Source of the DNA: Candidatus Fermentibacterota bacterium | Lineage (GTDB): Bacteria; Fermentibacterota; Fermentibacteria; Fermentibacterales; JCC-6 | Direction: 5' to 3' | DNA: 35,491 bases | Assembly (NCBI GenBank): GCA_014728175.1 | Contig: WJMA01000060.1 | Span: 1-35,491 of the forward strand | In this document: piece by piece, positions 4,813 through 17,326 of the stretch | How the letters are laid out: each line of letters opens with the position of its first letter | Position numbering within the stretch: the stretch's first letter is position 1 | Notes under the pieces: generated by a model | Told to the model about the DNA's origin: nothing | What the model saw: the letters and a program-made list of their open reading frames with translations, nothing else | The model's database searches: none | Program-made: the position numbers and the translations under genes

Positions 4813-6282
4813 CTACTTCAGTACCGTGAAGCGCCTCTCGACGGCATCACCGCCGTTTTCCACCCTCAACATGTACACACCGGAAGACAGATCTTCCGGA
4901 ACGCTCCAGTTTACCGCCTGGACGCCGGCGTCCGCAACCCGACCCAGATCGAGGTTGGCCACCTTGCGGCCGCAAAGGTCGAATATCGTGGCCTCTACGT
5001 TAGTGCCCACCTGGGCTCTTACGTCGAAACTCATTGCGGTACTCACGGGATTCGGAGCGATAGCGCCAACGAATAGCATAGGCCTGGCTTCGAAGCTCGG
5101 GGGAGTCTCCACGCCCACGTACTCCAGGGCGTTCATGGCTATGATGATGTTCATCCACCGGCAGTCCTCGCAGAACTCCTCGATCAAGGTGGTGTCGTTC
5201 TGACCTCCCCAGAAGCCGTTGTCGGCCACCTCGGGAGTCATGGCGAGAATGCTGGGGCTTCCCAGCGTATCGGAGTAGCTGTAGTCGCACTGCTCCCCGT
5301 TGACCGGATAGAGAACCTGGCCCGCCCTTCCGTACTCGTAGCCGTTGTACATGGTCATGTGGGCAGCCCAGCTCTCGAAGGTGCTCTGGTCGGGAGTGGG
5401 CTGATTCACATAGCCCCAAGGATAAAGGAGATAACCACCGTAAGTGTGGTAATGAAGTGCGGCGATAGGGGCCACGTCGTTCATGAAATCCCTCTGCTCC
5501 TGCGTCTCCACCTCAGAAGCGGGAGATGTCCCTCTGTACGTCTCGTCGTAAGGGTCGGGGCTGGAACCCTGGTCGTCGTAGCCCCACTTGTGCTCCCAAT
5601 TGCGGTTGAGGTCGATCCCGTCGCCGTTGGTCCAGTTCATGTTCTTCCGCTGGTTGCCGCCCCCGGGCATGTTGTACTCGTAGCCGTCGGGATTGGCTAT
5701 CGGCACGAAATAGACCTCGGCGTTGTCCAGTATAAAGGTTGCCCTGGTGTCGCTGTTGTAGTTATCGGCAAGCCAGGTTGCGAAATCTATGAGGACCGAG
5801 TTACCTCCGGGCTCCCGGGCGTGTATCAGGGAGCTGTAGTAGAGGGCCGGCTTGTCGGGGGGGCCCGAGCCGCTGGTCATCTTGATCATGTAGATGTCTC
5901 TGCCCTCGTAGGACTGGCCTATGGTCATGGGAGTATCGGCCAGGTCCGAATGGTCCTCCGCCAGGGTGCACCAGAAGGTCCAGTTCTCCCCCGGGCTGTA
6001 GTAGTAGCCGGCGTCGCGCGAGTTCTCCGGCAGGAGCTCTGCGAACTCCCGTGGCAGAACCTTTACGTCGTCGGAGTACCTGGTGAGCATTGTGGCCTCC
6101 GACTCGTCGGAGATCATAACGTCCACCCAGTGCTCGATGAGGTTTCCGGCGGCTACCTTGTATCCCTCTGCCTGGAGGGTCAGTGCGCCCTCATAGTCCA
6201 TTCCGCGCAGGCGTACCAGCCTTCCCGCTCCCGCAGAGGCCACCAATAGTACGGTAAGAGCGACAGAAAGGTATCGATACAT
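4813..6282 (-). CDS. Secreted M14 zinc carboxypeptidase with C-terminal FlgD/sorting-like domain
   Basis: The 489-residue protein has a signal peptide (residues 1-19), a pro-region, and an M14 catalytic domain. Zinc ligands are His154 and Glu157 (HAREPGG) and His279 (HYHTYGGYLLYPWG). Substrate-binding residues NRN lie at 226-228 (IDLNRNW), and the catalytic Glu is Glu351 (LAMTPEV). Residues about 400-489 resemble the FlgD Ig-like or type IX sorting fold: NPVSTAMSFDVRA, then ATIFDLCGRKVANL, then SSGVYMLRVENG. This implies surface anchoring or secretion in the FCB manner, which is inference. GGGGAGAG precedes the ATG. The enzyme should trim C-terminal residues from peptides outside the cell. 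Confidence 0.93.
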   Translation of the reverse strand: MYRYLSVALTVLLVASAGAGRLVRLRGMDYEGALTLQAEGYKVAAGNLIEHWVDVMISDESEATMLTRYSDDVKVLPREFAELLPENSRDAGYYYSPGENWTFWCTLAEDHSDLADTPMTIGQSYEGRDIYMIKMTSGSGPPDKPALYYSSLIHAREPGGNSVLIDFATWLADNYNSDTRATFILDNAEVYFVPIANPDGYEYNMPGGGNQRKNMNWTNGDGIDLNRNWEHKWGYDDQGSSPDPYDETYRGTSPASEVETQEQRDFMNDVAPIAALHYHTYGGYLLYPWGYVNQPTPDQSTFESWAAHMTMYNGYEYGRAGQVLYPVNGEQCDYSYSDTLGSPSILAMTPEVADNGFWGGQNDTTLIEEFCEDCRWMNIIIAMNALEYVGVETPPSFEARPMLFVGAIAPNPVSTAMSFDVRAQVGTNVEATIFDLCGRKVANLDLGRVADAGVQAVNWSVPEDLSSGVYMLRVENGGDAVERRFTVLK

Positions 6283-8124: not shown

Positions 8125-9123
8125 TCACTCCATATCCCAGTAGTCTATTCCCATCGCGTCCCGGACCAGCTCCATGGTGCGCTCGCCCTCCTCGACCGCT
8201 CTTCGGTTACCCTCCACCAGTATATCGTCTATCGAGCCGGCCTTCTCGAGCTCCCTTCGCTTTTGCCTAATCGGCTCCAGAAGCTCGTTGAGCCTTTTCG
8301 CCAGGTTCTTCTTGCAGGCCACGCACCCTATGGTCCCCCGGCGACACATCTCCTTTATGTTCTCGATCTCGTCTTCGCTGAAGGCGGCGTGGTAGTTGAA
8401 AATGGTGCAGACCTCCGGATGCCCCGGGTCGTCCTTGTGGATCCGGGCCGGGTCGGTGACCGCCTGGCTCACCTTCTCCTCCACCACATCGGGAGGGTCG
8501 GAGAGGTATATGCAGTTGCCCAGCGACTTGGACATCTTGGCGTTGCCGTCCAACCCCATCAACCTGGACACCCTGCTCACCATCGGCTCCGGCTCGGGGA
8601 AGACCTCGTCGTACAGCTCATTGAACCGCCTGGCCACGAACCTGGTCATCTCTATGTGCGGCAGCTGGTCCTCGCCCACCGGTACCAGGTCCGCCCTGCA
8701 GAACAGGATGTCGGCGGCCTGGCTGACCGGATATCCCAGAAAGCCGTAGGTCATGTTGTCCTCGAAGCCGTACTGCTTGGCCTCGGACTTGATGGTGGGA
8801 TTGTGCCGCAGCCTGTTGACGGTGGTGAACATGGAGAACAGCACGGTAAGCTCCGCTATCTGGGGAACCATGCTCTGCACGAATATGCTCATCCGCTCCG
8901 GATCGAGGCCGGACGCGATGTTGTCCAGGGCCACATCCCTGACGTCCACCTGCAGCTTCTCGGGGCGGTCGAAGTTGGTGCTCAGGGCCTGGATGTCGGC
9001 GATTATGATAAAGGTGTCGTACTCGTCCTGCAGGGATACCCTGTTCTGAAGAGATCCCGCGTAGTGTCCCAAATGGAGAGGGCCCGTGGGCCGGTCTCCG
9101 GTCAGTATTCTCTTTCTGGCCAT
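8125..9123 (-). CDS. trpS: Tryptophanyl-tRNA synthetase
   Basis: The 332-residue class I synthetase charges tRNA-Trp. It shows TGDRPTGPLHLGHYAGSL (HIGH motif, HLGH at 17-20), the tryptophan-pocket segment GYPVSQAADILFC, EDQLPHIEMTR, and AKMSKSLGN. Length is typical of bacterial TrpRS. Its ATG overlaps the kinase stop by one base (TGATG), and its own stop is one base from cysS, so the genes are cotranslated. Confidence 0.97.
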   Translation of the reverse strand: MARKRILTGDRPTGPLHLGHYAGSLQNRVSLQDEYDTFIIIADIQALSTNFDRPEKLQVDVRDVALDNIASGLDPERMSIFVQSMVPQIAELTVLFSMFTTVNRLRHNPTIKSEAKQYGFEDNMTYGFLGYPVSQAADILFCRADLVPVGEDQLPHIEMTRFVARRFNELYDEVFPEPEPMVSRVSRLMGLDGNAKMSKSLGNCIYLSDPPDVVEEKVSQAVTDPARIHKDDPGHPEVCTIFNYHAAFSEDEIENIKEMCRRGTIGCVACKKNLAKRLNELLEPIRQKRRELEKAGSIDDILVEGNRRAVEEGERTMELVRDAMGIDYWDME

Positions 9124-10142
9124 CAGCCGGTCTCCGATCCCTTTCTCACCACCGGTGAGTCGCTCTCCCTGAATCCTCTCAGATCTATCTCACCCACGTA
9201 GTTGTCCAGTATCCTGTACACGTCCCCAACCAGGGGGTTCAGCCGGGGGCAAACCTCTCTGTAGCCGTCGAGGTAACGCATGGTCCGGGGAAGGCTCTCC
9301 AGGTACCGTTCGCGGCCGTACGCCCTGTACTGGAACGCGAACGTGCCGGCAGCTTTGAGGTTGCGCTGGCATGCAGCAGCCGCGATACGGAACATGTTGG
9401 AGTCTCCTCTGTTTTGGATGAACTTCCGAGCGTACTCCTTCCACTGCTCGCCGCAATCGACGTAGCTATCCCTTATCAGGCTCACCGCATCGTACTCCGG
9501 AGGGCCAAAGCGTGCGTCTTGCCAGTCCAGCATCACCAGCCTGTCGTACTTGCACATGAGGTTGGCGCTGTGGAAGTCGCGATGGTTGAAAGCTTGTGGG
9601 CCGTCATCCAGCATGCCGCAAAGGTCTCTCATCCTGGATTGCAGCTCACCCAACTCGTCCTCGGGTACCTCCAGCAGCCTAAAGAACAGGTGCTCCAGGG
9701 TATGCTCCAGCTCGGCCATGAAAAAGCTTCTGGTGAAGTACCGCCTGCCGGCGACCGAGCTGGCGCAGCTGTCGTGTTCCAGCTCCTCCTGCATCCTTTC
9801 CAGAAGCTTCAGACCGTCTAACAGAGCCCCTCGGTATTGCTCCTCGGAGAGATCCAGCATCCTGGTGCTTCCCAGGTCCTCCTGCAGGGCCCAGCCCTTT
9901 TCCGGCAACGTCTCGTAGATCTTGGGAACAGGCATACCACGGGATTCCAGCAGGTCGTGAATGTCCAGCCATGGCCAGACGGGGATCTTTCCACTGTCCA
10001 TGGCCACGTAGGAGCCGTCATCGGAGCTTACCCTGTAGAACAAACGCCCCGATGCGTCGCTGGAAAGACGCTCGATCCCGCAACCGTCCCCGACCAGGCT
10101 TTCGAGCCAGCTTCTGAAACCTTCTGAAAGTTCCCTTATCAT
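9123..10142 (-). CDS. AmgK-like amino-sugar anomeric kinase (APH fold)
   Basis: The 339-residue protein has the aminoglycoside/choline kinase fold. The catalytic loop is FNHRDFHSANLM (Asp189) and the metal site is MLDWQDARFGPPEYDAVSLI (Asp206). The DxQDA..GP..YD.vSLiRD pattern is characteristic of the AmgK/COG3178 kinases that phosphorylate MurNAc or GlcNAc at C1. The next gene upstream is a MurU-like nucleotidyltransferase, the usual partner. I chose ATG at 10142 because it overlaps that gene's stop as ATGA; a longer reading to 10898 only mirrors the nucleotidyltransferase. Exact sugar substrate is inferred. Confidence 0.88.
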   Translation of the reverse strand: MIRELSEGFRSWLESLVGDGCGIERLSSDASGRLFYRVSSDDGSYVAMDSGKIPVWPWLDIHDLLESRGMPVPKIYETLPEKGWALQEDLGSTRMLDLSEEQYRGALLDGLKLLERMQEELEHDSCASSVAGRRYFTRSFFMAELEHTLEHLFFRLLEVPEDELGELQSRMRDLCGMLDDGPQAFNHRDFHSANLMCKYDRLVMLDWQDARFGPPEYDAVSLIRDSYVDCGEQWKEYARKFIQNRGDSNMFRIAAAACQRNLKAAGTFAFQYRAYGRERYLESLPRTMRYLDGYREVCPRLNPLVGDVYRILDNYVGEIDLRGFRESDSPVVRKGSETG

Positions 10143-11029
10143 GGACCTCTCCTGCACGACCAGAGAAGAATCTCGTTCTCCAGCTTTCCCTCCTCCAAAA
10201 CCGACCCTTCCAGCATCACCGCATCCCGGACCAGGCATCCGGGCATTACCCTGCACCGGTTGCCGATGTTGTATCGACCCTCCAGAACGGCGTTTTCGGC
10301 TACGAATGCACCCGGATGCAGAAAGCTTCCTCCCTCCAGAACGTTCGTTACGATCATACTCATACGGCCCATGTCGAGCCACCGGGAATCGCTGTAGAAG
10401 CTCTCCAGGCGCAATCCCTCGTCCAGTGCCGCCGGAAGCAGGTCGGAGAAGAGCCCGATGCATTGCCTTCGCCGGGCTATATCCAGAACCATGCTCTCTA
10501 CGATCGAGTAGCCGAGGTAGTGAGCCTGTTCGCAACAGGTCGTCGTCCCATCCTGGTCCGGACGAATGCGGCCGTCCGATCGAACCCGGAGGCCCCCGTA
10601 CTCCCCGCTTGGGGGGAAGGGCCCCACCAAAACGGTCCAGTGTGCCCCCCGGTTGCGGTGGTGGTCCAGCATCTGAACCAGCGGCGGAGTGGTTACCATA
10701 TCGGTGTTGGCAACCAACCAGGTGCCTCCCCGGGAGGTCGGGGCCAGCCTTCCCATGGTGGTTGCCGCGCCCAATGGCCTTTCTTCGAACATCATCTCGG
10801 CGGAACGGTCGGTGGACAATCCCGAGAGAACCAAGTCGGGACACCGGGAAGCGTTTGCCACCAGCCTTCGGGGATGGAGTTGCGACGTATGGGACCACAC
10901 GTTCGAGAGCACGGTTCCGCTTCCGAAGGGAAGCAGGGCCTTGGGCCTACATATCGAAAAAGGCTCTGCCCTGGTGCCGAAACCGGCCGTCAGGAGCAGA
11001 GCCCCTTCTACGGGTGGATCCCCGTTCAC
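10139..11029 (-). CDS. MurU-like sugar-1-phosphate nucleotidyltransferase
   Basis: The 296-residue protein has the nucleotidyltransferase signature LLLTAGFGTR at 11-20 and CRPKALLPFG at 27-36 (Lys30), then a metal-site strand LVANTDM. The C-terminal third (HPGAFVAENAVLEGRYNIGN and after) looks like left-handed beta-helix turns, which MurU lacks but GlmU/RmlA-like enzymes often have. With the coupled AmgK-like kinase, the pair would turn a free amino sugar into its UDP form, bypassing de novo synthesis. Start is GTG, one base after the zinc-ribbon gene. MurNAc versus GlcNAc or another hexose is undecided. Confidence 0.85.
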   Translation of the reverse strand: MNGDPPVEGALLLTAGFGTRAEPFSICRPKALLPFGSGTVLSNVWSHTSQLHPRRLVANASRCPDLVLSGLSTDRSAEMMFEERPLGAATTMGRLAPTSRGGTWLVANTDMVTTPPLVQMLDHHRNRGAHWTVLVGPFPPSGEYGGLRVRSDGRIRPDQDGTTTCCEQAHYLGYSIVESMVLDIARRRQCIGLFSDLLPAALDEGLRLESFYSDSRWLDMGRMSMIVTNVLEGGSFLHPGAFVAENAVLEGRYNIGNRCRVMPGCLVRDAVMLEGSVLEEGKLENEILLWSCRRGP

Positions 11030-11030
11030 C

Positions 11031-11234
11031 TCAACCGTATATCTCTTCTCTGTTGCAGTCGCAGATCTTCACCCTGCGCCTTTGAGGCCTGTAGCAGCCG
11101 TCCTCGTTGTACAGGGCCGCGTGGAATACGGCCGGAACTACCTCCTTGCCGCAGACCGGGCACTTTTCCTTGTGTATCCGCCTCGCCTCGTGGGCGAGCT
11201 TTGCAACGAACGTTCTTTCCTTCTTCTTGGGCAT
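11031..11234 (-). CDS. Small zinc-ribbon protein, unknown function
   Basis: The 67-residue basic protein carries CPVCGKE near residue 25 and KICDCNRE near 57, plausible ligands for one zinc ion. It begins with a lysine-rich helix (MPKKKERTFVAKLAHEARRI). I do not know the family; such proteins often bind nucleic acid, but that is a guess. AGGGAGGA precedes the ATG, and a hairpin (11246-11266) sits immediately upstream of that site. It heads the operon leading to MurU-like, AmgK-like, trpS and cysS, one base before the next start. Confidence 0.75.
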   Translation of the reverse strand: MPKKKERTFVAKLAHEARRIHKEKCPVCGKEVVPAVFHAALYNEDGCYRPQRRRVKICDCNREEIYG

Positions 11235-11245
11235 TCTTTCCTCCC

Positions 11246-11266
11246 TGGATCACGTGCGGTGATCCA
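11246..11266 (-). promoter_or_regulatory. Hairpin abutting the ribosome site of the zinc-ribbon gene
   Basis: Perfect 8-base arms (tggatcac / gtgatcca) with a 5-base loop end right before AGGGAGGA on the minus strand, in the 140-base gap 11235-11374. On the mRNA it could affect ribosome access; as DNA it could be an operator for a dimeric repressor. Confidence 0.45.
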
Positions 11267-11374
11267 AGTCTTGATGCGGTTTTTCTTTTGATCGGCCGTA
11301 TTTATAACCGCAGCCAACGATTGCTGCAACCCGTTTTGCACAATACAGCGAACGTATCGACGAGTCACGGGCCG

Positions 11375-12145
11375 TCAGCCCAGCAACAGGACTAGCCGGT
11401 CCCCTCGAGTTAGCTCCGTGGTACGCGCTGCACTGTCACCGGACAGGGCTAACTCCATAAGTCCTTGACTGCCTTGCAGAAGCAGCAGGTCTTCAGTCTC
11501 CAATCCGTAGGTCTCCACTCGTCGAACTGTTTTTCGGCCTCCGTTGGGAAGCCTTACTGCCCGGATGCGAAGGCCCTTCACGTCTTCCGACTCCAGCCAG
11601 AGAACCACGTTTCCGAATCCGTCTACGTGGGCCACCGACGCCTCCACGGTTTCTTCGGAGCGTCGAGGCATCGACCTCTCCAGCCTTACCAACTCGGTGA
11701 GAGGTATCTCCCTAAGTCGATCGAACCACTCGGGCTCTATGGCCAGCCTGGCAGCGGAAGGAGCGAACAGGTCCCTGCCATGAAAGGTGCTCGAGCTACT
11801 CTTCTCCGCCGAAGGAAGCTCCGCCGCCCCATCCAGGCTAACCCATCCGAACAGGCCGTTGTCCGGGCCCACCATCAGCCTGCCGCCGCACCTACAGCAG
11901 ATTGCCCTTCTATCGGTACCCACCCCCGGATCCACTACGGCGAGCAGAACCGACCTGGGGGGAAGATGGGGCAGACATCTGCTCACATGGAAGGCGGCCT
12001 CCTCCACCTCGCCGGAGCATATCCGATGGGTCAGATCGATCATTCGGCTGGACCCGCCGGTGGCCTCGACCAGGACGCTCTTCATCTGGCCCACGTAGGT
12101 ATCGCTGTCGCCGAAGTCGGACAAGAGAAAAATGGGCAGGCTCAT
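11375..12145 (-). CDS. SAM hydroxide adenosyltransferase (DUF62 family)
   Basis: The 256-residue enzyme should split S-adenosylmethionine with water into adenosine and methionine. Family marks are LSDFGDSDTYVGQMKSVL at 8-25, VVDPGVGTDRR near 70, GPDNGLFGWV near 93, STFHGRDLFAPSAARLA near 118-134, and VDGFGNVVLW near 173. It is related to fluorinase but lacks any sign of halide specialisation that I can judge. Its ATG overlaps the stop of the giant phosphatase gene (ATGA), placing it at the end of the partner-switching operon. Why it is there is unknown. Confidence 0.93.
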   Translation of the reverse strand: MSLPIFLLSDFGDSDTYVGQMKSVLVEATGGSSRMIDLTHRICSGEVEEAAFHVSRCLPHLPPRSVLLAVVDPGVGTDRRAICCRCGGRLMVGPDNGLFGWVSLDGAAELPSAEKSSSSTFHGRDLFAPSAARLAIEPEWFDRLREIPLTELVRLERSMPRRSEETVEASVAHVDGFGNVVLWLESEDVKGLRIRAVRLPNGGRKTVRRVETYGLETEDLLLLQGSQGLMELALSGDSAARTTELTRGDRLVLLLG

Positions 12146-15100
12146 CTGTGCTTTACGACCACCAGCGTCTGGTCGTCCCTCCTGGTGGAATCCTCCTCCA
12201 AGCTTCCTATCCGGTCCATAATACGGGCGGTTATCTGGCCGGCGGAGAGGTCACGGCAGGAGGTGACGATGCTGCTAAGGCCCTCGATACCCAGCTCCTC
12301 CCCCTTATCGTCCATTACTTCTGTGATCCCGTCGGTGTACAATACCAGCACGTCCCCCGGCCTCATGTAGACCTTGTGATCCTCGTACTCCGCGCTGCTT
12401 CTGAATCCCAGCAGTAGACCACCCTCGGTAAGACGTTTGACGCTCCCGTCCGGCCTGACCAGAAGAGGCGGGTTGTGCCCGGCGTTGACGTAGCTGTACT
12501 CGCCGTTGGAGACGTTGAGAACGCTGTAGAACAACCCGGCCAGGTTCTCGCCCTCGCCCACCGTGCAGAGCGACTCGTTGACCAGCCTTACTATCTCGCG
12601 GATTGAGCTTTCCTTCCAGACCCATGCCGAGAGATTCCCTTTCAGGGCGGCCATGGTCAGGGCGGCCGGTATGCCCTTGCCGGCCACGTCCCCCACTACC
12701 AGAACCAGCTTGCCCTCGTCCGGCTCGAAGAAGTCGTAGTAATCCCCACCCACCTCCCTGGCCGGTCTGTACACTACGTCCACCTCGTAGGGGTCCGGGT
12801 TGGGCGGGACCTCGGGAAGCAGCTCGGTCTGTATCTGCCTGGCCGTATTCAGCTCGTCGGCTATGGTGATGCCCGTCGACATTCGGTCCAGGAAGAGGTC
12901 GGGCAGCCTCTCCCGTATCGACTCGGATGACAGCAGGGTGGGACAGTCGGTTACCAGTCTCACCGCGTCCAGGCGAATCCTCTTGTCCGAATCGTTTAAA
13001 AGCTGCGCTATCCCGGCGGCCATAGATTCGTCGCATAACTCTTCATGCTCGGACAATCCCTTTATGACCGATCGCCTTACGTCCGGAGATGGATCGGATA
13101 CCGCCTTCGATATCAGCTTCTTCTTCATCGCTTCCTCCAGACGAACGGAATCCATGGCCCCCTGGAGAGTCTTCACCCGCACGAACGCGTCCTCGTCTTC
13201 CAGAAGCCTGCCCCGAACCAAAAGCGAATCCCGGTCGCACTCCCGGCAGAGCTCGCCCAGAGCCTCGCCGGCGGCGGCCCTCACCGACCTTTCGCCGTCC
13301 GCCGCCAGTCCCTCCAGAATGCGCATGCACAACCGACTGTTGCATCCTAGTCTCAAGACGGCTCTTGCCAATGCGATTCGCACTATCTCCGAGCCGTCCT
13401 CACCCAGCCTTTGCAGCAATGAAACTCCGGCCTCGCGGTCCAGATTGTCCAGGTTCCACAAAATGAACCACGGAATTCTTGCCCGTTCCTCCGGGGCTCC
13501 GGACTCTATTATCTCACCGCAGGCCCCCAGGCTTATCTCCGCGAGGTCCTCCTTGCCCTTGGCCAGCATCTGGCTCAGCGCCTCCCGCCCACCGTAGGCT
13601 TCGGATACAAGCAGCTTCCTTACCAGAAGCTCGCGCCCTTCTTTCTCCAGGGCGCTGAAGTAACGGAACACCAGGTTGGAAAGGTCGGCATTCCCCGCGG
13701 ACTCGTTCATGGCGATATACCAGAACTTCTCCCGCTCTTCGTCGCTCAGCCAACTGTAATTCATTAGCAGGCACAACGCGGCGGCGCGGACGTCGCCCTC
13801 CTCCAGATTCGTCAGAAGAGCCTTTCTTACGCTGGGGGCAAAGTATCGCAGCCTGCCTCCGACCTGCATGCTGAACTGGGCCTTGTACTGAGGCTCCAGC
13901 CTTTCCAACAGAAGCCAGAGGAGATCTGTGAACTCCTCATTGAATTCCTCGGGCAGCCTGTTTAGAAGACCGTTGGCCAGACGCATCAGCAGCTGGCTAT
14001 CGCCTTCGATCAGAGCCTCGTTGATCAACTCCGTCTCCCGATCGGTAACCGCGGGGAACCGGCTTCCCACGAAATCCAGTACCAGGGTTCTCACCTGCGG
14101 ATCGTCGTCCTCCAAAAGTCGCAAGTAGAGTCGATCCTGAACGTCACGCTTGCTCCAGGAGTAGATTCCGTTCATCAGGCTAGATCTTACTTCCGGATCG
14201 TCCTCCAGCAGGTCGTCCACCATTTTCCCGTACTCGGGATCGGACACCACCCAGGGCCTAACCAGTTCGAACGCCAGGGCCCTCCTGGCCTCCTTGCTGT
14301 CCGAGACCAGCAACCTCCGGCACAAAGCCCTGACCGGACGCTCCGAGTAGTACTTCTTGCTGAGAAGCACCATAAGCACCACCGTATTGCTGGCGAAGCT
14401 GTCCTCCTTCGAGACTCGCTGTAGCAGGCTGGTCCGGTTCTCCTGCGATAGGGAATGGTAGAAGTTGCAGAGGTTGTAGCCGGCCCGTCTCACTCTGGGG
14501 CTGCCGCTCCCAAGCAGGGTGTCGGCCAGTACGTGTGCGGATGGGTCCCTGCGCAAGAGCAGATCGTTTAGGAGGTCATCCAGGGCGTTCATTCTCATGG
14601 TGTCACCGGCCGCCAAGTGGCTCTCGCCCCTCAGCCCAAACCTCCGGAAAGGGCTCTCTCCCCTTCTGGCAAAGGTGGCTTCGTAAAGCTGCTCCTTCTC
14701 CTCCTCGTCCGGCAGTCTGTCCTCGTAGAAGAGAAGGAGCCGGTCCCAGTAATCGAACAGCACGCCCTTGAAAAGAGCTTCCGGGACCACCGGCTCGAAC
14801 AGGACCAGCAACAACAGTTCGGCCCGATCGATCTCGTTCATTGACGAATATCTCTCCAGCGCCCTTCTGCCCTCCTCCAATCGCCACTGCCTGGTTCCGG
14901 AAGGACGTGGCAGCCGGACGTGCCCGTCGCCGTAGGAATCGAACACTTCGACCATTTCCGGCATGGAGGAGGCCAGTATGCATCTCCTCCTGGACTCGGT
15001 CGCCCGGATTATCAGGGAAACGAAGAGTTCGAGTATGTGCATGGACAAGTACTCCAACTCCCGGCGAAAGATGTCCAGGTCGACGAATGCGATGCAGTCC

Positions 15101-15756
15101 TCCGCCCCGGTCAGTATACGCTCGATGTCCCGGCCGTTGACGTCCGGCGATATTACCTCGACGGGCTTTAGGCCTTCGGTGTGAGAATCGAGCATCAGAA
15201 GCCTGGCCATGGTGGTCTTGCCCGAACCCAGCTCCCCGCTGATACAAACGAATCCTCTCTTGGAAAGAACGGACCCCGCTGCGATCTTCGACCGCTCGTC
15301 CACCGTAGAGGGATCGATATCTCCATAGCTGTTCAGGAGCTCGTCGCCGGAGGGGAACCCGAAGCTCTCCCTCCTGACCGTGCTTATCCACTGTTGAACA
15401 TCGTTGGCCAGGCGTCGACGGGCTTCGACCACGGAACCGAACTCGAAGCAGAGGTTCCACTGCCTGAGTTTGGAGAAGATGGGACCACCGTGGCTGCACG
15501 AACCTCTGCTAAGAGCGCATATGGGAAAACCATCCCTGAAGGATTTGAAGAAGAACTCGCGGAGGGTGGCGGACGGCGGACCATTAAGAACCAGAAGCAC
15601 GGCGTCGGGCTCATCGGAGGTAGAGTCCACCAGCACCAGATCCTCCGCCCATTGGTCGGGCGGAGCCAGAGAGCCGACATCGGCCCTAAGCAGGGCCTCG
15701 AAGCCCTCCTCCAGACCTCGAGTCTCACAAGCCAGAAGCAGCCTGAAACGAGTCAA
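12142..15756 (-). CDS. 1204-residue P-loop ATPase / HEAT-repeat / SpoIIE-type phosphatase fusion
   Basis: Residues 1-130 look like a degenerate alpha/beta receiver-like domain without a clear phospho-acceptor. Residues 155-300 are a P-loop NTPase: Walker A GELGSGKT at 174-181 and Walker-B-like CIAFVDLD at 221-228. Residues about 390-950 are helical HEAT-like repeats (DDPQVRTLVLDFVGSR; DGERSVRAAAGEALGELC; DPSPDVRRSVIKGLSEH). The C-terminus is a PP2C/SpoIIE (RsbU) phosphatase with metal residues in GGDYYD (1003-1008), GDVAGKG (1022-1028), TDG (Asp1142) and RRDDQT (1192-1197). It probably dephosphorylates the STAS protein two genes upstream. It lies 17 bases after the RsbW-like gene and overlaps the DUF62 gene by 4. 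The combination is unfamiliar to me. Confidence 0.93.
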   Translation of the reverse strand: MTRFRLLLACETRGLEEGFEALLRADVGSLAPPDQWAEDLVLVDSTSDEPDAVLLVLNGPPSATLREFFFKSFRDGFPICALSRGSCSHGGPIFSKLRQWNLCFEFGSVVEARRRLANDVQQWISTVRRESFGFPSGDELLNSYGDIDPSTVDERSKIAAGSVLSKRGFVCISGELGSGKTTMARLLMLDSHTEGLKPVEVISPDVNGRDIERILTGAEDCIAFVDLDIFRRELEYLSMHILELFVSLIIRATESRRRCILASSMPEMVEVFDSYGDGHVRLPRPSGTRQWRLEEGRRALERYSSMNEIDRAELLLLVLFEPVVPEALFKGVLFDYWDRLLLFYEDRLPDEEEKEQLYEATFARRGESPFRRFGLRGESHLAAGDTMRMNALDDLLNDLLLRRDPSAHVLADTLLGSGSPRVRRAGYNLCNFYHSLSQENRTSLLQRVSKEDSFASNTVVLMVLLSKKYYSERPVRALCRRLLVSDSKEARRALAFELVRPWVVSDPEYGKMVDDLLEDDPEVRSSLMNGIYSWSKRDVQDRLYLRLLEDDDPQVRTLVLDFVGSRFPAVTDRETELINEALIEGDSQLLMRLANGLLNRLPEEFNEEFTDLLWLLLERLEPQYKAQFSMQVGGRLRYFAPSVRKALLTNLEEGDVRAAALCLLMNYSWLSDEEREKFWYIAMNESAGNADLSNLVFRYFSALEKEGRELLVRKLLVSEAYGGREALSQMLAKGKEDLAEISLGACGEIIESGAPEERARIPWFILWNLDNLDREAGVSLLQRLGEDGSEIVRIALARAVLRLGCNSRLCMRILEGLAADGERSVRAAAGEALGELCRECDRDSLLVRGRLLEDEDAFVRVKTLQGAMDSVRLEEAMKKKLISKAVSDPSPDVRRSVIKGLSEHEELCDESMAAGIAQLLNDSDKRIRLDAVRLVTDCPTLLSSESIRERLPDLFLDRMSTGITIADELNTARQIQTELLPEVPPNPDPYEVDVVYRPAREVGGDYYDFFEPDEGKLVLVVGDVAGKGIPAALTMAALKGNLSAWVWKESSIREIVRLVNESLCTVGEGENLAGLFYSVLNVSNGEYSYVNAGHNPPLLVRPDGSVKRLTEGGLLLGFRSSAEYEDHKVYMRPGDVLVLYTDGITEVMDDKGEELGIEGLSSIVTSCRDLSAGQITARIMDRIGSLEEDSTRRDDQTLVVVKHR

Positions 15757-15773
15757 TTTGGCCTAGGGCGGGC

Positions 15774-16187
15774 TTAGACCAGGGGCCAGACCAGTTTGGC
15801 CCTGGTCTTGCCGTTTGGGTCCAGGTCGAACTCGACCCATCGGGCGAGGTTTCGTGCGATGAGAACCCCTCTACCCCGGCTGGAGAAAAGCTTCTCTCCC
15901 TCCCCCGGCTCGTAGCCGGGCTCCTTCTCGGGCTGCCAGGTCCCGGTATCCACTATCTGGAAATCTATCCTGCCGGGCTGCCTACTTATGGTGATGGTCA
16001 CGTGCTTGTCCGGGTCCATGTCGTTTCCGTGTTCCATGGCGTTCTTGACCAGCTCCAAAACGGCGATGGAAAGAGAGGTCGTCTCATCGCCCCGCACGCC
16101 GAACGACGCACCGATCTTCTCCACGAAGACCTGGACGGCCTCCAGAAAGGATTCGCTGCTGGGGATCCTTAGCTCGACCGCTTCCAA
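15774..16187 (-). CDS. RsbW-like anti-sigma/serine kinase (HATPase_c_2)
   Basis: The 137-residue GHKL ATPase has the N-box LSIAVLELVKNAMEHGND (about 38-55), G1 box VDTG near 96-99 and the G2 region SSRGRGVLIARNLARWVEFD. Proteins of this type bind a target, often a sigma factor, and phosphorylate a STAS antagonist on serine. The STAS gene is 7 bases upstream and the phosphatase gene 17 bases downstream, so the three parts of a partner switch are in one operon. The regulated target is not encoded here. Confidence 0.94.
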   Translation of the reverse strand: MEAVELRIPSSESFLEAVQVFVEKIGASFGVRGDETTSLSIAVLELVKNAMEHGNDMDPDKHVTITISRQPGRIDFQIVDTGTWQPEKEPGYEPGEGEKLFSSRGRGVLIARNLARWVEFDLDPNGKTRAKLVWPLV

Positions 16188-16194
16188 GATCAGT

Positions 16195-16536
16195 CTATTC
16201 TTCGAAGCTCTGTAGAGCCTCTTCCTCGTCGGTGTAGGTGTCGAAAACCGTTATCAGCTTGGTTATGATGAAGAGCTCATGTATCTTCTTGGTCGCGTTT
16301 AGGATCTTCATCTCGCCATCGGCTCTGCTCAGGGTGGTGTGCCCGGAGACTATCACCCCCAGGCCGGAGCTGTCCATCCAGGTAACACCCCCCAGATCGA
16401 GCAACACCTTGAGGCGATCGTGGTTGACGGCGTTCTGGAAGGTCTCCTTGAGCTCTACCAGCTCTGGTCCCCCGATGACCTTCCCGGACAGACGTATCTT
16501 GAGAACATCGCCCTTCATCTCTTCGTGAATCTTCAA
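16195..16536 (-). CDS. STAS-domain anti-sigma factor antagonist
   Basis: The 113-residue single STAS domain matches RsbV/SpoIIAA: MKIHEEMKGDVLKIRLSGKV at the start, LLDLGGVTWMDSSGLGVIVS in the core, and the expected phospho-acceptor Ser56 in DSSGLG. When unphosphorylated it should sequester the RsbW-like kinase. The start is TTG with GGGGAGG six bases upstream; the next ATG (codon 7) would cut the first strand. It is the first gene of the operon. Confidence 0.94.
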   Translation of the reverse strand: MKIHEEMKGDVLKIRLSGKVIGGPELVELKETFQNAVNHDRLKVLLDLGGVTWMDSSGLGVIVSGHTTLSRADGEMKILNATKKIHELFIITKLITVFDTYTDEEEALQSFEE

Positions 16537-16569
16537 GTCAGACCTCCCCTAATTTTTTGCTACTGGGCA

Positions 16570-16633: not shown

Positions 16634-17326
16634 TCAGGCGCAGACCACGTAATCCTGCCAGTTACGGTAGCCCATAGAGTTCAGCCAGCTACATATCTCC
16701 TCCCGGGCTCCAGGGGCCCTGGAAGCCACCAGTACCGGAAGGCCCCGGAGTGCTTTTAGCCCCCGGGGAAGACTATGAGAGCTCCGCGCATGGTGCTTCC
16801 GAATCTGCCCTCCGCGACGTCGACGAAAGCTCTGATCGAAATCCCTTCCCGCCTCAGGCACTGGGAGAGCCTTCTCCCGGTCTGACCGCTGCCCCACATC
16901 ACCACCTCGTCATCGACAATCGGAGGAACGTAACGGATATATATAGCTTTGAGCTGGTAAAACGACGACACCGAGTATCTGGAATCGGTCCGGGAGAGCC
17001 TGTCCGGCCTTTCCCTCCATCTAAGGAGCATCCGGGGGCATTTGACGAATCGTATTCCCATCTTCCACAGCCGGAGCCAGAGCTCGTAGTCCTCCGGCAC
17101 GTCCAGGCTCCGGTACCCCCCACCCCCCGGAGCGAAGCAGGCGGAACCTGTTATTCTCTGCCTCCCGGCCCTGGGCAAGCTCGGTGGAGCCGTCGTCCGA
17201 CCGGTCGTTCACCATAACCACCTCGAAGTCGTCCCTGGTCTGCTCGGCTAGCGACTGCAAGGCCTCCTCCATACGGGCGGCCTCGTTGCGAAAGGGCATG
17301 AGCACTGACAGAGAGGGATGGGTCAA
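16634..17326 (-). pseudogene. Broken family 2 glycosyltransferase
   Basis: Three reading frames together spell parts of a GT2 enzyme. Frame 1 (from ATG at 17326) has LSVLMPFRNEAARMEEALQS and EVVMVNDRSDDGSTELAQ. Frame 2 (to 16756) has GGYRSLDVPEDYELWLRLWK. Frame 3 (to the stop at 16634) has LKALRGLPVLVASRAPGARE and ends NWQDYVVCA. About 100 residues that should lie between frames 1 and 2, including the DxD metal site, are absent, with the joint near a G-run at 17112-17130. The second shift is in a C/G run at 16760-16768. The start overlaps the TlpA gene stop as ATGA. Most likely a decaying gene; the shifts alone could be sequencing errors, the deletion could not. Confidence 0.8.

Follow-up and report, generated by a model that had tools for sequence, protein, structure and literature searches.

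The window, that is, the whole 35,491-nucleotide stretch of DNA analysed here, encodes on its minus strand a STAS-domain protein, an RsbW/SpoIIAB-like kinase and a very large protein ending in a SpoIIE-type phosphatase, with a gene for SAM hydroxide adenosyltransferase (SAM_HAT) directly downstream (Table 1). The STAS and kinase genes are separated by 7 bases and the kinase and phosphatase genes by 17 bases, and the phosphatase and SAM_HAT genes overlap by ATGA. A Pfam scan gave STAS (PF01740, 45 bits), HATPase_c_2 (PF13581, 66 bits) and SpoIIE (PF07228, 157 bits), all above the gathering cut-offs, and in addition HEAT_2 (52 bits), nSTAND3 (PF20720, 33.7 bits; cut-off 27.2) and SAM_HAT_N/C, which was also above cut-off. 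For the giant gene, a TTG start is backed by orthologue starts at the same place or at most one codon away. All three cassette genes (12142-16536) begin with TTG, and GTG or TTG is frequent in the orthologues; non-ATG starts are thus recurrent in this operon.

Table 1. Positions in the window of the cassette genes, the domains of the giant phosphatase and the neighbouring features
Feature	Position	Strand	Description
GGGGAGG ribosome-binding site ahead of the STAS TTG start	16543..16549	(-)	GGAGG-type site kept in orthologues
STAS-domain anti-sigma-factor antagonist (RsbV/SpoIIAA-like)	16195..16536	(-)	113 aa; TTG start; phospho-site Ser56; Pfam STAS and TIGR00377 above cut-off
RsbW/SpoIIAB-like HATPase_c_2 kinase, anti-sigma candidate	15774..16187	(-)	137 aa; TTG start; PF13581
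ATPase-HEAT-SpoIIE phosphatase	12142..15756	(-)	1204 aa; TTG start
N-terminal domain, residues 1-140	15337..15756	(-)	alternating beta/alpha pattern; receiver-like aspartate absent (alignment)
P-loop ATPase, nSTAND3/AAA class, residues 141-300	14857..15336	(-)	Walker A 174-181; Walker B D226/D228
HEAT-repeat solenoid, residues 401-940	12937..14556	(-)	about 16 repeats; HEAT_2 in 21/21 members; 34-residue period
Linker, residues 941-985	12802..12936	(-)	RsbU-type EL..AR.IQ..LLP segment
SpoIIE/PP2C phosphatase domain, residues 986-1204	12145..12801	(-)	PF07228, 157 bits; aligned to Rv1364c
SAM hydroxide adenosyltransferase (SAM_HAT)	11375..12145	(-)	adjacent gene, considered to lie outside the switch

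In an alignment of the STAS protein to SpoIIAA structures, Ser56 falls on the phosphorylated first Ser of DSSG. The chain 1tid_B reads 'mdasg', with Ala at the position matching Ser56, which we take to be the S58A variant of SpoIIAA. At least 97% of 29 sequences keep the DSSG motif, and the protein has the phosphorylatable Ser of RsbV/SpoIIAA-type antagonists. The kinase aligns to structures of both SpoIIAB and RsbW, and the N box (E..xN) and G2 box of HATPase_c_2 kinases are conserved in it together with a variant G1 box. This G1 box (kinase gene, 15774-16187) is DxGxW with a conserved Trp, compared with DxGxG in SpoIIAB. The earlier note had recognized here the three parts of a partner switch and had singled out Ser56 of the STAS protein; both readings agree with the domain matches and with the alignment to SpoIIAA. 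Judged from their sequences, the STAS protein, the kinase and the giant phosphatase constitute a compact and complete partner-switch core.

In the giant protein, an N-terminal domain is followed by the P-loop ATPase, the HEAT region, the linker and the PP2C domain. For the N-terminal domain, a Pfam scan of 30 members gave no consistent match to residues 1-140, a profile search against PDB gave P-loop-level or chance matches only, and the single-sequence model was poor (pLDDT 40). In the following P-loop domain, Walker A is GELGSGKT, of which G174, G179, K180 and T181 are invariant in 30 orthologues, as are D226 and D228 of Walker B and several R/W residues after it. The nSTAND3 profile was matched in all 21 members scanned (best 7e-12), along with weaker AAA matches; with regard to STAND membership, the nSTAND3 match spans only 72 residues, co-occurs with the AAA-like matches and comes without a confident fold. 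At the other end of the protein, the PF07228 match, the upstream helical linker and the PP2C metal-binding aspartates D1005, D1023, D1142 and D1195 are those of an RsbU/SpoIIE-type phosphatase. Loss of the metal-binding residues in homologues had been named beforehand as a finding that would refute the earlier reading; instead, all four aspartates are invariant in the orthologues.

In the home protein, Pfam detects HEAT over residues 780-935 only. On the other hand, hydrophobicity averaged over 30 orthologues had a 34-residue period in residues 400-780 (reached by 0 of 5000 surrogates) as well as in 780-940, and the same test gave no such period in residues 1-400. The region has the tandem helical hairpins of about 34 residues and the D..VR signatures of HEAT repeats, and its low-confidence single-sequence model is all-helical, the top Foldseek matches being the PP2A scaffold subunit and other HEAT proteins. 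The description of the phosphatase as the tail of a 1204-residue protein with a Walker A motif at 174-181 and more than 500 HEAT-like residues therefore holds, with the whole of 400-940 periodic.

HEAT solenoids are typical scaffolds, and the PP2A scaffold subunit among the top matches of the low-confidence model would fit an ATPase-HEAT half that serves as a constitutive scaffold or localizer, with a phosphatase that is not gated by ATP. We consider this unlikely, because the G, K and T residues of Walker A, the Walker B acids and the later R/W residues are invariant in 30 orthologues of about 40% overall identity, and because the linker is strongly conserved. The linker region (residues 961-1012; 57% identity to orthologues) and the PP2C domain (52%) are the most conserved parts of the protein, compared with 42% overall. 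That both Walker motifs are invariant speaks for a genuine nucleotide cycle.

The distribution of the cassette was analysed in a phylum sample of 42 genomes, representing three families and nine genera. The giant protein was present, whole or in part, in 39 of them at 39-47% identity; among these carriers we counted G041, in which a contig end encodes the phosphatase C-terminus. The three genomes without it were G014, G018 and G021. The STAS, kinase and phosphatase genes were contiguous in all 20 long loci within the phylum, and short gaps were likewise seen in those shorter loci that extend over the whole cassette. Mean identity was 72% for STAS, 59% for the kinase and 42% for the phosphatase, the STAS protein being 65-80% identical in 28 orthologues. 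The conserved gene order runs from a ferredoxin-like and a thioredoxin-like gene through the gene at about 16756-17178 to STAS, kinase and phosphatase, and continues with SAM_HAT, a gene missing in the window, a nucleotidyltransferase, a kinase-like protein, TrpS and CysS.

Several features of this neighbourhood were observed in passing. Missing from the window (11029-11375) is a gene that the relatives conserve between SAM_HAT and the nucleotidyltransferase; its product, of about 370-400 aa, starts with MKxIxLLLHxYQPPTQD and looks GH57-like by eye. The nucleotidyltransferase and kinase-like protein at 9123-11029 resemble a sugar recycling pair of the AmgK/MurU type, and the kinase-like gene is listed with a start that lies too far upstream, conservation setting in near residue 250. 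A T9SS-type sorting domain, also encoded in the window, points to the FCB group.

This fixed synteny bears on a second reading of the sensor half, in which it would detect foreign or damaged protein in the manner of a STAND sensor, with the PP2C tail leading to a transcriptional response rather than to cell death. STAND logic consists of an NTPase plus superstructure repeats, the occurrence of nSTAND3 in every member scanned is in keeping with it, and the anti-phage sensor Avs5 has nSTAND3 and C-terminal repeats (PMC12931631). However, the cassette is a core locus that is vertically conserved in the same gene order across the phylum, unlike mobile defence genes, the PADLOC matches were weak and partial (repeat and P-loop), and a toxin domain is not what the PP2C tail represents. 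A defence role of this kind is accordingly rated as quite improbable.

The membership of SAM_HAT was decided by two genomes. In G014 (98% complete, 1.9 Mb), the same neighbourhood is present and the cassette is gone: the match to the upstream gene runs to 12732, and SAM_HAT follows from 13005. Neither a SpoIIE domain nor a STAS antagonist was found in the whole G014 genome. Conversely, G009 has the cassette and no SAM_HAT beside it. SAM_HAT is thus kept without the cassette and missing beside it, which indicates that STAS, kinase and phosphatase are one unit to which SAM_HAT does not belong. An enzyme that acts as effector or input of the switch could be supposed from the ATGA overlap in the window and from the adjacency of SAM_HAT to the cassette in most genomes; the dissociation in both directions already contradicts this, and such a role appears extremely improbable. 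In addition, the ATGA spacing is not conserved. Of the coupling by ATGA that had been reported, the overlap itself was correct for the window and the implied membership in the system was not supported.

The number of phosphatases differs from the number of antagonists. STAS antagonists normally occur once per genome, with few exceptions, and the genome from which the window derives (the home genome) encodes three SpoIIE proteins for a single STAS antagonist. Besides the giant phosphatase, these include two proteins whose long N-terminal halves, inspected by eye, appear to be membrane-bound. It follows that several SpoIIE inputs probably converge on the single STAS/kinase switch in the home genome. 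Elsewhere, G016 has a second STAS gene beside a SpoIIE-HATPase fusion (L098, G016:C5:147620-149172), and a second-type module with a SpoIIE-HATPase fusion protein lies on G003:C69 (L099).

No sigma factor is encoded on this contig, and the seven Sigma70_r2 matches of the home genome are all on other contigs. Two of these seven proteins are non-ECF (RpoD/RpoS-like), and five are of ECF size or ECF-like. A sigma factor of the SigB/F/G or FliA class was not recognized in the home genome, where a highly divergent one is possible. One of the non-ECF factors is near-invariant (82-86% identity between the home genome and sister genera), is present in nearly all genomes and was taken as the primary sigma factor. 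The other, designated SigX, reaches 38-40% identity in a comparison of this kind and is RpoD-like but below all specific cut-offs. It lies between dnaG and a BtuF-like gene in the six genomes checked. The fast-evolving SigX gene directly follows dnaG (loci L092 at about 4900-6264, G000:C65:184887-186293; L097:6816-8216; L102:5438-6445), the usual place of rpoD, and the near-invariant primary sigma gene is located elsewhere; SigX may be a former primary sigma factor that has turned dispensable.

Some form of SigX was detected in all 39 cassette-bearing genomes, although in lineages g4 and g5 it is shorter and divergent and was called orthologous from gene order in three of them. In cassette-less G014, dnaG and btuF are side by side and SigX is gone. 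The G014 genome is reduced, with 2 ECF sigma factors compared with mostly 4-6 in near-complete relatives, and it represents one well-supported loss event. G018 and G021 were rejected as further joint losses because they are 61-66% complete, also lack dnaG and are uninformative. The presence of SigX in all cassette genomes and its absence from G014 make it the best candidate for the target of the kinase. The earlier statement that no sigma factor is encoded nearby is thus true of the window and incomplete for the genome, in which this candidate is found elsewhere.

A switch that works as described but whose kinase holds another regulator or an enzyme, or whose unphosphorylated STAS protein acts on an effector, is the most serious alternative to SigX, and we rate it as a real possibility that is somewhat less probable than its opposite. 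Non-sigma targets occur in several non-Firmicute partner switches. Sigma factors of the SigB/F/FliA class were not recognized in the home genome, and SigX is RpoD-like, whereas kinases of the RsbW type usually bind factors of the SigB/F class. Furthermore, the STAS protein is far more conserved than the kinase and the phosphatase, as expected if it had extra partners, but at least three phosphatases plus the kinase as partners could explain this too. Against a non-sigma target, the presence of SigX matches that of the cassette in all informative genomes, with joint loss in G014.

The following model is built on what was seen directly: the gene content, the domain order, the conservation of the catalytic residues, the linkage across the phylum and the clean joint loss. 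The kinase would phosphorylate the STAS protein on Ser56 and could also hold its target, for which SigX is the best candidate. The giant phosphatase, when active, would strip the phosphate from Ser56; the STAS protein would then capture the kinase and the target would be freed. The ATPase and HEAT arm would read the input: a ligand would dock on the HEAT repeats, and the P-loop domain would contribute its nucleotide state. A resulting change of conformation or oligomeric state would reach the PP2C domain by way of the conserved helical linker, in the manner of RsbU. The helical linker of RsbU dimerizes and switches the phosphatase on, and there is evidence that such linkers carry signals to PPM phosphatases across bacterial phyla (PMC12143880). 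By analogy with RsbU, it is most likely that the ATPase-HEAT half controls the linker. This local sensor phosphatase would be cytoplasmic, and the one STAS protein of the home genome probably also receives input from the two other SpoIIE phosphatases. We infer these reaction steps, the gating by ATP and the target from knowledge of the families involved.

As a whole, this partner switch, with an ATPase-HEAT-sensed phosphatase, a STAS protein phosphorylated on Ser56, a kinase and SigX as the best target candidate, is considered likely. A wider proposal can be offered only tentatively and seems doubtful to us: that a PP2C switch driven by an ATP-cycling P-loop (STAND/AAA) and HEAT sensor releases SigX, an RpoD-derived factor encoded at the ancestral dnaG-rpoD position, in a phylum-specific general response, which would represent both a new soluble sensor class and a new target class.

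The switch type is already known, and what appears new is the design of the ATPase-HEAT sensor. Partner-switch phosphatases have been described with, among others, PAS, GAF, HAMP, response-receiver and RsbT-binding modules as sensors (PMC12143880). No paper combining the present domains was found in a literature search, and the stress regulation of the phylum appears undescribed in the literature searched. Sequence searches beyond the phylum, which covered plasmids, a set of genome contigs and the Legionella phylum, did not recover the architecture: tblastn against plasmids matched the C-terminal PP2C and the adjacent part and not the full architecture, and a profile of residues 1-400 gave short P-loop matches only in 399 genomes of the Legionella phylum. 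Legionella ABC-transporter genes, all that the contig scan gave, were rejected as chance matches to a short peptide pattern. A conserved ATPase-HEAT sensor, if true, would add a class in which an ATP clock could serve to read large protein ligands, and in SigX, with which the cassette is paired, there is a direct, testable target.

Among known systems, the SigB switch of B. subtilis (RsbU/RsbP-RsbV-RsbW) is alike in its three parts, the STAS Ser site, the HATPase kinase, the linker-bearing PP2C phosphatase and the use of several phosphatases per STAS protein. It differs in that the sensor half here consists of a P-loop ATPase and about 540 residues of HEAT repeats, and in that the proposed target is RpoD-like in a home genome without a recognized SigB-class sigma factor. 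The SigF system (SpoIIE-SpoIIAA-SpoIIAB) contains the nearest solved relatives of the STAS protein and the kinase, but SpoIIE is a membrane protein, whereas here the ATPase/HEAT half of the phosphatase is soluble and the setting is not one of sporulation. RsbU/RsbV/RsbW of Chlamydia is likewise a Gram-negative partner switch; its reported target is the housekeeping sigma66 (PMC11619594), so that a target of the RpoD type has a precedent, whereas the candidate target here is an alternative sigma factor. Chlamydia RsbU is predicted to sense alpha-ketoglutarate in the periplasm, in contrast to the ATPase and HEAT sensor of the present system. STAND NTPases with nSTAND3, such as Avs5, have an nSTAND3 P-loop domain followed by a long helical repeat array, which the nSTAND3 match and the HEAT array found here resemble, but Avs5 has an N-terminal Sir2-type effector, whereas here the output is a C-terminal PP2C domain after the repeats in a vertically inherited core locus. 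Finally, the PP2A scaffold (PR65) is among the best HEAT matches in both sequence and fold, but has only the repeat class in common with the present protein, and the catalytic subunit of PP2A has a phosphatase fold unrelated to the SpoIIE/PP2C domain found here.
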